From Klenkia brasiliensis (GTDB taxonomy: Bacteria; Actinomycetota; Actinomycetes; Mycobacteriales; Geodermatophilaceae), in the NCBI RefSeq assembly GCF_900100695.1, contig NZ_FNCF01000004.1, positions 496,001-560,000 on the forward strand: a DNA stretch of 64,000 nucleotides. Direction: 5' to 3'. Positions 29,863 to 60,775 of the stretch are shown here, one piece after another. The notes under the pieces were generated by a model that had not been told where the DNA came from, did not search any database, and saw nothing but the letters and a program-made list of their open reading frames with translations. The position numbers and the translations under genes were made by a program. Position 1 is the stretch's first letter. Every line of letters begins with the position of its first letter.

Positions 29863-32604
29863 ATGTCTGCACCGGTGTCCGAGACGGCCTCCCCTTCCAC
29901 CGCGGCCCCGGCGGGCCAGCGCCCGCGGCTGCTGCTGCTCGACGGCCACTCCCTGGCCTACCGGGCGTTCTTCGCGCTGCCGGTGGAGAACTTCTCCACC
30001 ACCACGGGGCAGCCCACCAACGCCGTGTACGGGTTCACCTCGATGCTCATCAACGTGCTGCGCGACGAGGCGCCCACGCACCTGGCCGTGGCCTTCGACG
30101 TCGGCCGCAAGACCTTCCGCAGCGAGATCTACGCCGAGTACAAGGCCAACCGGTCCGAGAGCCCCACCGACTTCCGCGGCCAGGTGTCCCTCATCCAGGA
30201 GGTGCTCGCCGCGCTGCACGTCCCGGTGCTCACCGCCGAGGGCTACGAGGCCGACGACGTCATCGCCACGCTCACCGTGCAGGCCGTCGAGTCGGGCATG
30301 GACGTGCTGATCTGCACCGGCGACCGCGACGCCCTGCAGCTGGTCAACGAGCACGTCACCGTCCTCTACCCGCGCAAGGGCGTGTCCGACCTGACCCGGT
30401 TCACCCCCGAGGCCGTCGAGGAGAAGTACGGCCTGAGCCCGGTGCAGTACCCCGACTTCGCGGCGCTGCGCGGCGACCCGTCGGACAACCTGCCGGGCAT
30501 CCCGAGCGTGGGGGAGAAGACCGCCGCGAAGTGGGTCCGCGAGTACGGGTCGCTGGACGCCCTGGTCGACCAGGTCGACACCGTCAAGGGCAAGGTCGGG
30601 GAGAAGCTGCGCGAGCACCTGTCCTCGGTGCTGCAGAACCGCCGGCTCACCGAGCTCGACCGCACCGTCGCCCTCGAGCTGCACCCCACCGACCTCGCCG
30701 TCCAGCCGTGGGACCGCAACGAGGTGCACACCCTCTTCGACAACCTCCAGTTCCGGGTGCTGCGCGACCGGCTGTTCGCCACGCTGTCCAGCGCCGAGCC
30801 CGAGGTCGACGGCGGCTTCGACGTCACCGTCGACGAGGTCGCCCCCGGCGAGCTGGGCGGGTGGCTGGCCACCCACGGCCGGGCCGGGCACACCGGCATC
30901 GTGTTCCGGGGCCGCTGGGGTCGCGGCACCGGCGAGCTCACCGGCATCGCGCTGGCCGGCGCCGACGACCACACCGTCTTCGTCGACCTCGGCCCCGACC
31001 TCGACACCGCCGACGAGCAGGCCCTCGCCGCCTGGCTGGCCGACCCCACCGCCCGCAAGGTGGTGCACGAGGAGAAGGGCCCGCTGCTGGCCGTCTGGGC
31101 CCGCGGCTGGGAGCTCGAGGGCGAGATCAGCGACACCGCGCTGGCCGCCTACCTCGCCCTGCCCGGCCAGCGCTCGTTCGACCTGGCCGACCTGTCGGTC
31201 CGGTACCTGCGCCGCGAGCTCGCCGACGCCGACCCCGCCGAGCAGCAGCTCACCCTCGACGGCATGGGCCCCACGGAGGCCGACCTCGCCCGCGAGGCCG
31301 CGGTCTCCGACGCCCGCAAGGCCGTCGCGGTCAACGACCTCTCCGACGCCCTCGAGCAGCTGCTCGGCCAGAAGGGCGGCGACCAGCTGCTCACCGGTCT
31401 CGAGCTGCCGCTGACCAAGGTGCTCGCCCGCATGGAGCAGCGCGGCATCGCCGCCGACCTGGAGCTGCTGCACGACCTGCAGTCCGAGTTCTCCGGCAAG
31501 GTCGCCGAGGCCGCCGCCGACGCCTACGAGGCCATCGGCACCGAGATCAACCTCGGGTCACCCAAGCAGCTGCAGGCGGTGCTGTTCGACCAGCTCGGCC
31601 TGCCCAAGACCAAGAAGAACAAGACCGGCTACACCACCGACGCCGACGCGCTGGCCTGGCTGCAGGAGACCAGCCCGCACCCCTTCCTCGAGGCCCTCCT
31701 GCGCCACCGCGACGTCACCCGGCTGCGCACCGTCATCGACGGCCTCATCCCGATGGTCGACGACGCCGGCCGGATCCACACCACGTTCCAGCAGACCATC
31801 GCGGCCACCGGGCGGCTGTCCTCCACCGACCCCAACCTGCAGAACATCCCCATCCGCTCGGCCGAGGGCCGCCGCATCCGGCAGGCCTTCGTCGTGGGCG
31901 CGGGCTACGAGTCGCTCATGACGGCCGACTACAGCCAGATCGAGATGCGGATCATGGCCCACCTGTCCGAGGACGCCGGGCTCATCGAGGCCTTCATGTC
32001 CGGCGAGGACCTGCACACCTTCGTCGCCGCCCGCGCCTTCGACATCCCGCTCGAGCAGGTCGACCCCGAGATGCGCCGCCGGATCAAGGCCATGAGCTAC
32101 GGCCTGGCCTACGGGCTGTCCGCCTACGGGCTGTCCCAGCAGCTGAAGATCACCCCCGAGGAGGCGCGCGTGCAGATGCACGCCTACTTCGAGCGCTTCG
32201 GCGGCATCCGCGACTACCTCGACACCGTCGTCGACGACGCCCGGCAGACCGGCTACACCCAGACCACCATGGGCCGCCGCCGCTACCTGCCCGACCTCAC
32301 CAGCGACAACAAGCAGCGCCGCGACATGGCTGAGCGGATGGCCCTCAACGCCCCCATCCAGGGCTCGGCCGCCGACGTCATCAAGGTCGCCATGCTCGAC
32401 GTCGAGCGGGCCATCGCCGAGCGCGGCCTGGCCAGCCGGATGCTGCTGCAGGTGCACGACGAACTGGTGCTCGAGGTCGCGCCCGGGGAGCGGGAGGAGC
32501 TCGAGGAGCTCGTCCGCACCCAGATGGCCGGGGCCGCCCAGCTGTCCGTGCCGCTGGACGTCTCCGTCGGCGTCGGGCAGAGCTGGGACGCGGCCGCGCA
32601 CTGA
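29863..32604 (+). CDS. polA: DNA polymerase I
   Basis: The protein has 913 residues. A 5' nuclease domain (about 20-310) carries LLLLDGHSLAYRAFF, TGDRDALQLV and the helix-hairpin-helix around DNLPGIPSVGEKTA. The central domain has lost the DxE and other proofreading motifs, so 3'-5' exonuclease activity is not expected. The polymerase domain has motif A MTADYSQIEMRI, the O-helix RRRIKAMSYGLAYG and motif C LLQVHDELVLEV. Tyr occupies the position of Phe762 of E. coli, as in mycobacterial Pol I. It fills gaps in repair and Okazaki processing. A structured repeat follows the stop. Confidence 0.96.
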   Translation: MSAPVSETASPSTAAPAGQRPRLLLLDGHSLAYRAFFALPVENFSTTTGQPTNAVYGFTSMLINVLRDEAPTHLAVAFDVGRKTFRSEIYAEYKANRSESPTDFRGQVSLIQEVLAALHVPVLTAEGYEADDVIATLTVQAVESGMDVLICTGDRDALQLVNEHVTVLYPRKGVSDLTRFTPEAVEEKYGLSPVQYPDFAALRGDPSDNLPGIPSVGEKTAAKWVREYGSLDALVDQVDTVKGKVGEKLREHLSSVLQNRRLTELDRTVALELHPTDLAVQPWDRNEVHTLFDNLQFRVLRDRLFATLSSAEPEVDGGFDVTVDEVAPGELGGWLATHGRAGHTGIVFRGRWGRGTGELTGIALAGADDHTVFVDLGPDLDTADEQALAAWLADPTARKVVHEEKGPLLAVWARGWELEGEISDTALAAYLALPGQRSFDLADLSVRYLRRELADADPAEQQLTLDGMGPTEADLAREAAVSDARKAVAVNDLSDALEQLLGQKGGDQLLTGLELPLTKVLARMEQRGIAADLELLHDLQSEFSGKVAEAAADAYEAIGTEINLGSPKQLQAVLFDQLGLPKTKKNKTGYTTDADALAWLQETSPHPFLEALLRHRDVTRLRTVIDGLIPMVDDAGRIHTTFQQTIAATGRLSSTDPNLQNIPIRSAEGRRIRQAFVVGAGYESLMTADYSQIEMRIMAHLSEDAGLIEAFMSGEDLHTFVAARAFDIPLEQVDPEMRRRIKAMSYGLAYGLSAYGLSQQLKITPEEARVQMHAYFERFGGIRDYLDTVVDDARQTGYTQTTMGRRRYLPDLTSDNKQRRDMAERMALNAPIQGSAADVIKVAMLDVERAIAERGLASRMLLQVHDELVLEVAPGEREELEELVRTQMAGAAQLSVPLDVSVGVGQSWDAAAH

Positions 32605-32614
32605 GTTCACTGTC

Positions 32615-32724
32615 GTCCTCCGGACTCCCACCGCGGCCAACGGCCGTGCCCCTGGTGCGACGAGCGGTGCTGCTCCCGCCTCGGGGTGGGGGCGCTCGTG
32701 CCTCGGCCCCCACCCGTCGGCGGG
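32615..32724 (+). repeat. Structured intergenic repeat, copy 1 (downstream of polA)
   Basis: About 110 bases beginning 10 bases after the polA stop. It matches the minus strand of 59820-59928 with about 13 differences by eye. Sub-hairpins in the sense strand: GTCCTCCGGAC at its start, CGGCCAACGGCCG, a longer stem ACGAGCG/CGCTCGT enclosing CCCGCCTCGGG, and CCCGTCGGCGGG at its end. Both copies lie just after a stop codon, in the direction of that gene. Confidence 0.8.
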
Positions 32725-32828
32725 ACTGGGTCGAGCCGGGTGTCGGGGACCCTGCGGGCCCCGCTCCACCCGGCTCATCGCCCGCGTCCCTGCGGTCTTG
32801 GCCCCTGCCGTGCGTGGTGATCGCGGGG

Positions 32829-38234: not shown

Positions 38235-38309
38235 TGGTGGGCGATACTGGGATCGAACCAGTGACCTCTTCCGTGTCAGGGAAGCGCGCTACCGCTGCGC
38301 CAATCGCCC
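38235..38309 (-). tRNA. tRNA-Val(GAC)
   Basis: The acceptor stem is GGGCGAT/ATCGCCC, the anticodon loop CTGACAC gives GAC, and the T-loop is TTCGATC. A73 and CCA are encoded. It reads GUC and GUU, and with the tRNA-Val(CAC) at 41201 covers two Val codon groups. Confidence 0.95.
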
Positions 38310-38350
38310 GTGCTGCCCGGCCCCCCTCGAACCTGCCCGTGGGGCCGCCG

Positions 38351-38421
38351 AGGTGGAGACGGGATTTGAACCCGTGTAGACGGCTTTGCAGGCCGTTGCC
38401 TCGCCTCTCGGCCACTCCACC
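38351..38421 (-). tRNA. tRNA-Cys(GCA)
   Basis: The acceptor stem is GGTGGAG/CTCCACC, the anticodon loop CTGCAAA gives GCA, and the discriminator is U73, a Cys identity element. CCA is not encoded. Confidence 0.95.
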
Positions 38422-38460
38422 GCACACGAGCGCCGATCCGAAGATCGACGCCCGGTTCCG

Positions 38461-38532
38461 AGCGGATGACGGGATTCGAACCCGCGACCCTCACCTTGGC
38501 AAGGTGATGCTCTACCACTGAGCCACATCCGC
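38461..38532 (-). tRNA. tRNA-Gly(GCC)
   Basis: The acceptor stem is GCGGATG/CATCCGC, the anticodon loop TTGCCAA gives GCC, and the discriminator is U73. CCA is not encoded. It is the first gene of the minus-strand Gly-Cys-Val cluster. Confidence 0.95.
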
Positions 38533-41200: not shown

Positions 41201-41272
41201 GGGCGATTGGCTCAGCGGTAGAGCGCTTCGTTCACACCGAAGAGGTCACTGGTTCGATCCCAGTATCGCCCA
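41201..41272 (+). tRNA. tRNA-Val(CAC)
   Basis: The acceptor stem is GGGCGAT/ATCGCCC, the anticodon loop TTCACAC gives CAC, the T-loop is TTCGATC and A73 follows. CCA is not encoded. Its body is nearly identical to the tRNA-Val(GAC) at 38235 outside the anticodon arm, suggesting an old duplication. Confidence 0.95.
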
Positions 41273-57256: not shown

Positions 57257-57293
57257 GGTCGGGGTCCCGGCCGGTCGGACGACAGGAGTGGCC

Positions 57294-59774
<2,481 letters not shown>

Positions 59775-59779
59775 GGAGC

Positions 59780-59799
59780 GGGGGCCCGGAGGGTCCCCC
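59780..59799 (+). terminator. Hairpin after relA
   Basis: GGGGGCCC (59780-59787) pairs with GGGTCCCCC (59791-59799, one bulged T) over the loop GGA, five bases after the relA stop. Confidence 0.6.
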
Positions 59800-59819
59800 G
59801 ACGAACGCGGTCAGCCCTT

Positions 59820-59928
59820 CCCGCCGACGGGTGGCGGCCGAGGGACGAGTGCCGTCACCCCGAGGCGGGAGCAGCGGCGCTCGTCGCAGCGGGGGGACGG
59901 CCGTTGGCCGCGGTGCGGTCCGGAGGAC
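59820..59928 (-). repeat. Structured intergenic repeat, copy 2 (downstream of the cyclophilin gene)
   Basis: On the minus strand this 109-base element begins 10 bases after the cyclophilin stop and matches the element after polA (32615-32724) with about 13 differences and one single-base gap by eye. The same sub-hairpins are kept, including CCCGCCTCGGG and the final CCCGTCGGCGGG. The larger stem is also kept: GACGAG then C, GCC pairs with GGC, A, CTCGTC, with some changes that create new pairs. Confidence 0.8.
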
Positions 59929-59938
59929 CGCGATGTGC

Positions 59939-60775
59939 TCAGGCCGCAGGCGTGACGGCGGTGATGGTCACCGGGGTGGCGGGGGCGCCGTCCTGGCTGC
60001 CGTCGGCCACGCCGGCCGCGGCGACGGTGTCCAGCACGCCCAGGCCCGCGTCGCCGACCGTGCCGAAGACGGTGTAGCTCGGGGGGAGCTGGCTGTCGCC
60101 GTAGACCAGGAAGAACTGGCTGCCGTCGGTGCCCTGGCCGCTGTTGGCCATCGCCAGGACGCCGCGGCCGTAGGTCTCGCTGCCCGACGTCGCGGTCGGG
60201 AACGTGTAGCCCGGGCCGCCCGAGCCGGTGCCCGACGGGTCGCCGCACTGCAGCACCTTCAGGCCGTCGGAGGTGGTCAGCCGGTGGCAGGGGGTGTTGT
60301 CGAAGTAGCCCTGCGCGGCCAGCGACGCGAAGCTCTCGGCCGCGCAGGCGCCGGGGCCGGAGAAGTCGAGGGTGACCGGGACGTCGCCGGCGCTGGTCGC
60401 GATGGTCTCGGCCTGCTGCCCGGTCGGGAGGTCGCCCGAGGGCGCGTCCACGGCGGTGGGGCCGGAGCTGCCCTGCGCGTCGTAGGTGTAGGTGCACGCC
60501 CCGGCGGTGGTGGTCTGGCCGGCCCGCTCGGCGCCCGGGCCGGCGGTGGGGGCGGCGGCCGAGCTCGACGACGACGCCGAGGCGTCCGCGGCCGGTGCGT
60601 CGTCCCCGCCCAGCCCGGTGATCAGCAGCGCGGCGCCCACGACCACGACGACGGCGGCCACGGTGACCCCGATGAGCAGGTTGCGGCGGCGCTTGCGCTG
60701 CTGCGCGGCACGCCGCTCCAGCTGGCGCTGCAGGTGGCGCTGGGCGGACTGACGGCGCTGCTTGTTGCTGACCAC
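59939..60775 (-). CDS. Membrane-anchored peptidyl-prolyl cis-trans isomerase (cyclophilin)
   Basis: The protein has 278 residues. A very basic N-terminus (about 1-30, QRR/QRK-rich) precedes one membrane helix (about 31-55) and a Ser/Ala-rich linker. The cyclophilin domain follows: VTLDFSGPGACAAESFASLAAQGYFDNTPCHRLT, LQCGDPSGTGSGGPGYTF, LAMANSGQGTDGSQFFLVYGDSQLPPSYTVFGTV. Arg, Gln and Phe of the active site are present. It should help fold proteins outside the membrane. Its position next to relA matches Rv2582. The GTG at 60775 has TAGACT 8 bases upstream. Confidence 0.92.
   Translation of the reverse strand: MVSNKQRRQSAQRHLQRQLERRAAQQRKRRRNLLIGVTVAAVVVVVGAALLITGLGGDDAPAADASASSSSSAAAPTAGPGAERAGQTTTAGACTYTYDAQGSSGPTAVDAPSGDLPTGQQAETIATSAGDVPVTLDFSGPGACAAESFASLAAQGYFDNTPCHRLTTSDGLKVLQCGDPSGTGSGGPGYTFPTATSGSETYGRGVLAMANSGQGTDGSQFFLVYGDSQLPPSYTVFGTVGDAGLGVLDTVAAAGVADGSQDGAPATPVTITAVTPAA

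Follow-up and report, generated by a model that had tools for sequence, protein, structure and literature searches.

REP and BIME sequences are small palindromes tagged with GTAG or CGTC that lie mostly downstream of genes and are patchily distributed among relatives, and REPs of the CGTC class have no known transposase according to the available text of PMC3733652. The same text mentions untagged REP-like repeats in M. tuberculosis, and the word 'actinobacteria' is absent from its main text. Mycobacterial interspersed repetitive units (MIRU) are described, in the accessible part of PMC12548453, with an open reading frame coupled to a gene at its start codon, and BOX, RUP and SPRITE of pneumococcus, together with ERIC and Correia, appear in that of PMC3049150 as short repeats between genes whose transcripts are predicted to fold. 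On the subject of repeats, the available text of PMC9686282 and PMC3035280 mentions only CRISPR, CRISPR counts or assembly repeats, and the repeat names looked for do not occur in that of PMC6006769. No prior description of the family reported below was found in the literature searched, which lay mostly outside subscription journals. The insertion sites of MIRU have DTGA at their edge, and the U-less (I-shaped) terminators of actinobacteria consist of a GC-rich hairpin with no run of T.

Here we describe a repeat of Klenkia brasiliensis and its relatives in the Geodermatophilaceae, which we file as a bacterial interspersed palindromic repeat belonging to no named family compared. It resembles REP/BIME sequences, as far as the accessible text describes them, in being a small palindromic repeat located downstream of genes (81 of 92 and 44 of 57 copies in two samples), between convergent or co-directional genes, and patchily distributed. 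It differs from them in that its unit is ~105 bp with three hairpins at near-fixed spacing rather than one palindrome of 20-40 bp, its left end reads RTGACAYY rather than a GTAG or CGTC tag, its close pairs (under 400 nt) are direct in 25 of 26 cases whereas neighbouring REPs are mostly inverted, and it is docked on the stop codon. Membership in the RAYT/REP system was rejected because Y1_Tnp had no match in the 36 genomes of the family searched, a criterion that applies to the GTAG class. Like MIRU, as partly described in the source above, the repeat is actinobacterial, dispersed, short and apparently mobile, and it has an RTGA edge (RTGAC in 23 of 49 copies with no stop nearby); unlike MIRU, it lies after stops, with most copies facing convergent genes, and preserves no open reading frame. 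A MIRU-like coding element was rejected because the spacing classes of the repeat (56, 57, 58, 59, 60 and 61) do not go in steps of three. The composite layout recalls BOX, with its tandem modules, as well as RUP, SPRITE, ERIC and Correia, from which the repeat is set apart by its lack of evident terminal inverted repeats and its strict stop-codon position. With U-less terminators it shares a GC-rich hairpin just past the stop and the lack of a T run, but it is a homologous multi-hairpin repeat with conserved unpaired blocks, whereas those are unrelated simple palindromes.

The window, i.e., the whole 64,000-nucleotide stretch of K. brasiliensis DNA analysed, holds two copies of the repeat, A and B, with the following features.

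29875-32604, + strand: polA (DNA polymerase I), stop TGA at 32602-32604 (gene call; Pfam DNA_pol_A, 6.5e-149)
32605-32776, + strand: copy A, whole repeat with HP1, HP2, extra hairpin and HP3 (sequence, covariance-model match)
32612-32628, + strand: HP1 of copy A, GTCGTCC-TCC-GGACTCC, a variant with two mismatched pairs (sequence, alignment)
32630-32647, + strand: ACCG and HP2 of copy A (CGGC-CAACG-GCCG), the most conserved block of the family (alignment)
32675-32724, + strand: extra hairpin of copy A, CCCGCC...GGCGGG (sequence, folding)
32733-32776, + strand: HP3 of copy A, GAGCCGGGTG...CACCCGGCTC, tip GGGGACCCTGCGGGCCCC (sequence; minimum free energy, MFE)
57288-59774, + strand: relA/spoT homologue, convergent, stop at 59772-59774 inside the end of copy B (gene call, Pfam)
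59767-59938, - strand: copy B, whole repeat (sequence, covariance-model match)
59767-59810, - strand: HP3 of copy B, tip GGGGGACCCTCCGGGCCCCC, its 3' arm overlapping the relA stop (sequence, gene call, MFE)
59820-59869, - strand: extra hairpin of copy B, CCCGCC...GGCGGG (sequence comparison)
59897-59914, - strand: ACCG and HP2 of copy B (sequence comparison)
59915-59931, - strand: HP1 of copy B, GCGGTCC-TCC-GGACCGC (sequence, model match)
59939-60775, - strand: gene for a cyclophilin-type peptidyl-prolyl isomerase, stop at 59939-59941 (gene call, Pfam)

The first-pass annotation had placed the two copies on opposite strands, 10 bases after the polA and cyclophilin stops, and these positions and strands hold, with both genes confirmed by Pfam; the identity that it had put near 88% by eye came out at 89% (DNA comparison, query bases 11-121, E 5e-35). 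The core as first noted, from 32615 on the + strand in copy A and up to 59928 on the - strand in copy B, had been given a length of about 110 bases, and this fell short: HP1 begins earlier, 7 nt past the stop in each copy (32612 in A, 59931 in B), and ~52 bases past the first-noted end form a further hairpin, reaching ~32776 in A and ~59767 in B. With the outer limits as read from the sequence, each copy is ~170 bp long compared with ~105 bp for the family unit, both carry one additional hairpin, and the last hairpin of both has the tip GGGGACCC-TNC-GGGCCCC. Because its last arm overlaps the relA stop, copy B fills the entire convergent cyclophilin-relA gap; at 59767-59774 a single repeat thereby provides cyclophilin and relA alike with their 3' end. 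In the same gap of a congener (L301 in genome G006), a truncated forward repeat stands beside an inverted copy, apparently one for each convergent gene. Inspection by eye bore out, for the inner hairpin, that the larger stem is kept with changes that make new pairs; the two window copies nevertheless have weak MFE z-scores (-1.85 and -1.08), and support for the fold comes from other copies. At the gathering threshold, an Rfam search of the window returned 4 tRNAs only, and a search of 13 repeat loci gave no match at E<=1. The tRNA genes of the window lie on the - strand within 38238-38532 (three) and on the + strand at 41201-41272 (one).

Alignment of copies from many loci gives the anatomy of the unit, which in order consists of RTGACAYY, HP1, ACCG, HP2, CCCC...GAGC and HP3 over ~105 bp. 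HP1 is a 7-bp stem with a nearly constant CC-TCC-GG centre, its remaining pairs varying freely, and in the consensus it is flanked as CAYY-HP1-ACCG; HP2 is CGGC-CANNN-GCCG; HP3 rises from a stem foot (e.g., GTCGCGCC/GGCGCGAC) to a GGG-CCC tip, and its internal loop contains CACTC or CGCTC. The distance from HP2 to the HP3 tip is 56-61 nt in the 97 copies (of 120) with a measurable tip, and 58 in 54 of these. Two alignments were used: A2, with 26 of 28 copies (L048 and L050 were omitted because their HP2 is degenerate), and A3, with 61 of 62 copies selected from the 97 (L142 was omitted). By eye, no inverted repeat joining the two ends of the element was seen in the 61 copies of A3. A U-tract intrinsic terminator was rejected, with no TTT within 20 nt past the HP3 foot in 62 of 62 copies.

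A covariance-model search, proposed in the first-pass annotation, was run with a model (R1) built from the 26 copies of A2, including both window copies and L003, and found further copies in the same genome and in relatives. In K. brasiliensis, R1 gave 8 matches at E<=0.005, and a DNA search of this genome gave weaker additional copies. Among relatives, a DNA search yielded matches at E<=0.001 in 30 of 60 genomes (14 candidates scored per genome), and R1 matched in 39 of 78 genomes, including 36 of the 46 from the same family (up to 66 candidates scored per genome); the three matches outside the Geodermatophilaceae in this 78-genome search were all marginal, with E values of 0.001-0.009. Neither search found a copy in the congener G004, and R1 found none in three genera with fragmented or small genomes (g5, g8 and g10). 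Deeper scoring of six relatives, with 150 candidates scored in each, gave 113, 79, 65, 44, 41 and 17 copies. In a phylum sample of 396 genomes with this species as the sole member of its family, a strict pattern had 4 matches, all in K. brasiliensis (0 in the remaining 395), and the reversed pattern had 0; a 22-base pattern was present in 35 of 78 relatives, with one match for the reversed control. A scan of named genomes found at least 117 stretches titled Blastococcus, Geodermatophilus, Modestobacter, Klenkia, Trujillonella or 'Geodermatophilaceae bacterium', and among the matches listed one title lay outside the family, 'UNVERIFIED_ORG: Bacillus sp. AZ43' (L179). The repeat of L179 follows a gene whose protein shares at least 82% identity with its counterparts at L115 (Geodermatophilus) and L182 (Blastococcus); the 'Bacillus' label looks wrong. 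The searches establish a repeat family that, as far as searched, is confined to the Geodermatophilaceae. The presence of just two copies in the window might have suggested that they resemble each other by chance or descend from one ancestral gene end, and we give this practically no weight: it is rejected by a family of many copies adjoining unrelated genes.

We examined the placement of the copies relative to genes called by a codon-usage caller trained on the named loci and inspected on the window. The first sample came from 120 pattern copies, of which 99 had both neighbours in view and 92 were kept after 7 overlapping a called gene were dropped; the second comprised 60 of the best R1 hits from four genomes, taken with no random draw, of which 57 were kept after 3 overlapping a gene were dropped. 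One copy (L157, identical to L423) is common to both. In the first sample, 81 of 92 copies lie downstream of a gene on the same strand, 49 of them facing a convergent and 32 a co-directional gene, and 66 of 92 start between -5 and +12 nt from the same-strand stop; in the second, 44 of 57 lie downstream of a same-strand gene and 36 of 57 start in that interval, where random placement and orientation in the same gaps would give at most 6.8 of 57. This tabulation of stop distance and strand, which the first-pass annotation had also put forward, demonstrates a consistent stop-proximal, same-strand placement for most copies. In 16 of the 62 copies that face the end of an opposite-strand gene, the stop of that gene lies 45-70 nt past the core, close to where the element ends on its right side. 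Counting both samples, 23 of 49 copies with no same-strand stop within 20 nt have RTGAC at its fixed place, and in some copies a stop codon lies inside HP1. Since RTGAC is kept where no stop is near, the motif is intrinsic to the element, and the element can bring its own stop codon.

These placements bear on the reading of the repeat as purely selfish and devoid of a host role, its stop position reflecting the survivors after selection against other insertions. The patchy copy number, nesting, decay and wide variation within one genus agree with such a repeat; nevertheless, the stop placement is far tighter than avoidance of genes predicts (36 of 57 versus at most 6.8), convergent gene ends are over-represented (106 convergent versus 43 co-directional at element-bearing gaps, 208 versus 485 at element-free gaps), and some gene families carry the element in several genera. 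We therefore regard this reading as unlikely. Clustering of 87 upstream proteins gives 59 clusters, several of which are common to more than one genus, and this number of clusters argues against a narrow regulon.

Against the explanation that we favour, a repeat serving as the 3'-end hairpin of genes, count the copies with no upstream gene on the same strand, 11 of 92 and 13 of 57 in the two samples. Five of the 8 copies in the K. brasiliensis genome are at stops, the upstream frame reads through a sixth (L062), and the remaining two, L064 and L066, are antisense, set against the start of an opposite-strand gene; these two also count against that explanation. At L064 and L066, the CAT adjoining HP1 coincides with the start of the opposite-strand gene. 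At L062 (G000:C3:803478-803590), the frame of the upstream gene, which we take to be an EAL-type gene, enters the repeat and ends at its internal TGAGC, and by eye the same holds in genomes G001 and G007; here, the repeat would encode the C-terminus of the upstream protein.

To describe the hairpins at gene ends, we sought perfect inverted repeats within 120 nt of the stop at the same loci (L112-L228). At element-free ends, the longest perfect inverted repeat was at least 9 bp in 22% of 72 convergent and 16% of 229 co-directional cases, compared with 1.4% and 1.7%, respectively, in mononucleotide shuffles; with long perfect inverted repeats this abundant, a U-less 3' hairpin is evidently common at these loci. 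At element-bearing ends, repeats of this length occurred in 4% of 50 convergent and 6% of 31 co-directional cases, and the mean longest perfect repeat was 7.3 and 7.1 bp (convergent and co-directional), versus 7.7 and 6.9 bp at element-free ends. The stems of the element are thus shorter or interrupted, which leaves an argument from equal hairpins loose. By our criteria, 2 of 301 element-free ends had a T-tailed terminator (none of the 72 convergent and 2 of the 229 co-directional), as did 0 of 50 and 1 of 31 element-bearing ends, respectively, and the comparison of U-tailed terminators is uninformative because these are almost absent at such criteria. A terminator role of the element is plausible because, by eye, alleles lacking it often hold an unrelated plain hairpin.

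A further reading holds that the element is a dedicated cis-acting 3'-UTR RNA motif, in which a protein would recognise HP1-HP2-HP3 and control mRNA decay or termination, with the conserved unpaired ACCG, CANNN, CCCC, GAGC and CACTC as its putative binding site. The same-strand orientation, the docking at stops and the conserved single-stranded blocks all speak for it, as does part of the covariation in HP1: in alignment A2, double changes occur in 4 of 7 pairs and 95.5% of cells are paired, and the number of paired cells, the number of doubly changed cells and the covariation score exceed all 500 shuffles (0 of 500 reach the score) and all slid versions. Two further measures remained within the shuffles, namely, doubly changed pairs (reached by 96 of 500) and pair types (reached by 500 of 500), and these tell against the RNA motif. 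So do the copy number, which ranges from 0 to more than 100 among relatives, the unrelated upstream genes, and the loss of the element or its replacement by unrelated hairpins at orthologous genes.

The types of base pair bear on the same question. An RNA helix tolerates G-U and not A-C. Across 164 distinct copies, HP1 contains 1,103 Watson-Crick, 4 G-U, 6 A-C and 35 other cells, 30 of the 35 lying in two columns typical of the polA-copy variant with two mismatched pairs; the 164 were taken from 189 candidates by requiring that the two inner pairs be Watson-Crick and that at least 5 of 7 be either Watson-Crick or G-U, which biases the count slightly against A-C. In the 8-bp foot of HP3, 37 copies gave 11 G-U versus 20 A-C, the latter not being independent events because one recurrent C-A position gives 9 of the 20, and free folding of HP3 gave 128 G-U versus 121 A-C, a count confounded by the conserved internal loop. 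As a control, 28 acceptor stems from tRNAs at the same loci, aligned at the offset that Watson-Crick pairing indicated, contained 5 G-U and 0 A-C. That G-U is no commoner than A-C in the repeat (4 versus 6 in HP1, 11 versus 20 in the HP3 foot) argues against pairing maintained only in the sense RNA, and pairing at the DNA level or mutation processes that perfect palindromes fit better, with the numbers small and the copies related. Altogether, we consider a dedicated RNA motif conceivable, if rather unlikely. The first-pass annotation had offered two options, 3'-UTR RNA elements forming a family and a tiny mobile repeat preferring gene ends. The second is well supported by the copies in relatives, the position at stops, nesting, arrays and presence/absence variation, and the first lost ground with the lack of a G-U excess and of any Rfam match.

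The repeat forms tandem and nested copies. Four orthologous upstream proteins have a common 3' end at L163, L192, L190 and L214, of which the first two carry nested copies and the last two their non-nested counterparts; L357, beside a closely similar gene end, has the same nested layout as L163 and L192. Within the outer copy, the nested junctions fall in HP2 or HP3, at RTGACA or close to it, and mostly read RTGACA, with some ATAACA, ATCACA or ACGACA. Ladders of copies alike at the 5' side and truncated at the 3' side were found at L385, L391, L417 and L418. Tandem and nested forms could also come from slippage or gene conversion, which counts against mobility.

Orthologous sites across 8 Klenkia genomes (K. 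brasiliensis and seven congeners) hold the element in full, decayed or not at all, presence being judged by eye; five congeners were read at the L062 site and six at the L067 site. Decayed remnants were seen by eye in G002 at the L063 site and in G006 at the L067 site, and where the element is absent, a plain hairpin of unrelated sequence often stands in its place. After polA, the element is present in five Klenkia genomes and in single genomes of genera g2 and g3; 30 polA loci were read, 6 with the element (G006 was read separately), and by eye G010 has it and G062 lacks it. In G007, whose polA is 99% identical over the 299 aa queried, the site has no element and carries a plain hairpin. It also counts against mobility that the polymorphic sites yielded no transposition event in which a clean empty site, a target duplication and an exact right end could be seen; the flanks there are too divergent, and empty sites do not align cleanly. 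We infer mobility as opposed to duplication plus gene conversion. Other sequences also occur at these sites. At L309 and L341 of G007, where the repeat stands in K. brasiliensis, two similar sequences lie just past the stops, each a hairpin TGATCAGG...CCTGGTCAC followed by CGGCCA-CCGCACCGACGT; they may represent a second family of gene-end repeats in the G007 species. At the L064 site an AT-richer insert starting CTCCTATGACA-TCATTGATAGCG replaces the repeat in G003 (L317) and G006 (L322).

As to the means of movement, a REP-type element carried as single-stranded DNA by an IS200/IS605 (Y1, RAYT) transposase would account for the two terminal hairpins with no evident terminal inverted repeats and for near-perfect Watson-Crick palindromes without a G-U excess. 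It is highly improbable in our view, as Y1_Tnp (PF01797) matched 0 of 36 genomes of the family in a search that was positive in 5 of 14 controls and 3 of 24 relatives from the order, there is no GTAG or CGTC tag, and the pairs are head to tail rather than inverted. A bolder reading, which we think quite improbable, is that the repeat is a mobile element that has its own stop codon as left edge and evolved to replace gene ends; HP1 would lie inside the footprint of the terminating ribosome and fold only after the ribosome leaves, and movement would take a hairpin-based single-stranded DNA or RNA route without a Y1 transposase. If true, this arrangement would link the completion of translation to the termination of transcription or the decay of the RNA.

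The explanation that we favour, with modest confidence, is a spreading palindromic repeat that docks on stop codons and serves as the 3'-end hairpin of genes; it is preferred because 3' hairpins are common at these loci, the repeat supplies hairpins, and no narrow regulon is apparent. Copies sit on the upstream gene's stop codon or bring one with them, and their arrival would thereby leave the protein undamaged. The GC-rich hairpins would then act as the 3'-end hairpin, i.e., a transcription stop and/or a barrier to 3' exonucleases, and the element would take the place of the plain U-less hairpins found at other gene ends. Between convergent genes, one copy could serve both. Spread and turnover may proceed by a copy or insertion process together with local tandem duplication, followed by decay.

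Within a single bacterial family, the repeat marks up to ~100 sites per genome, most of them at gene ends, and the stop codon built into its edge suggests a harmless entry into gene ends. Whatever mobilises it is worth finding. With the element, a decayed element or a plain hairpin after their orthologous genes, sister species provide a natural experiment on the role of the hairpin that follows the stop.
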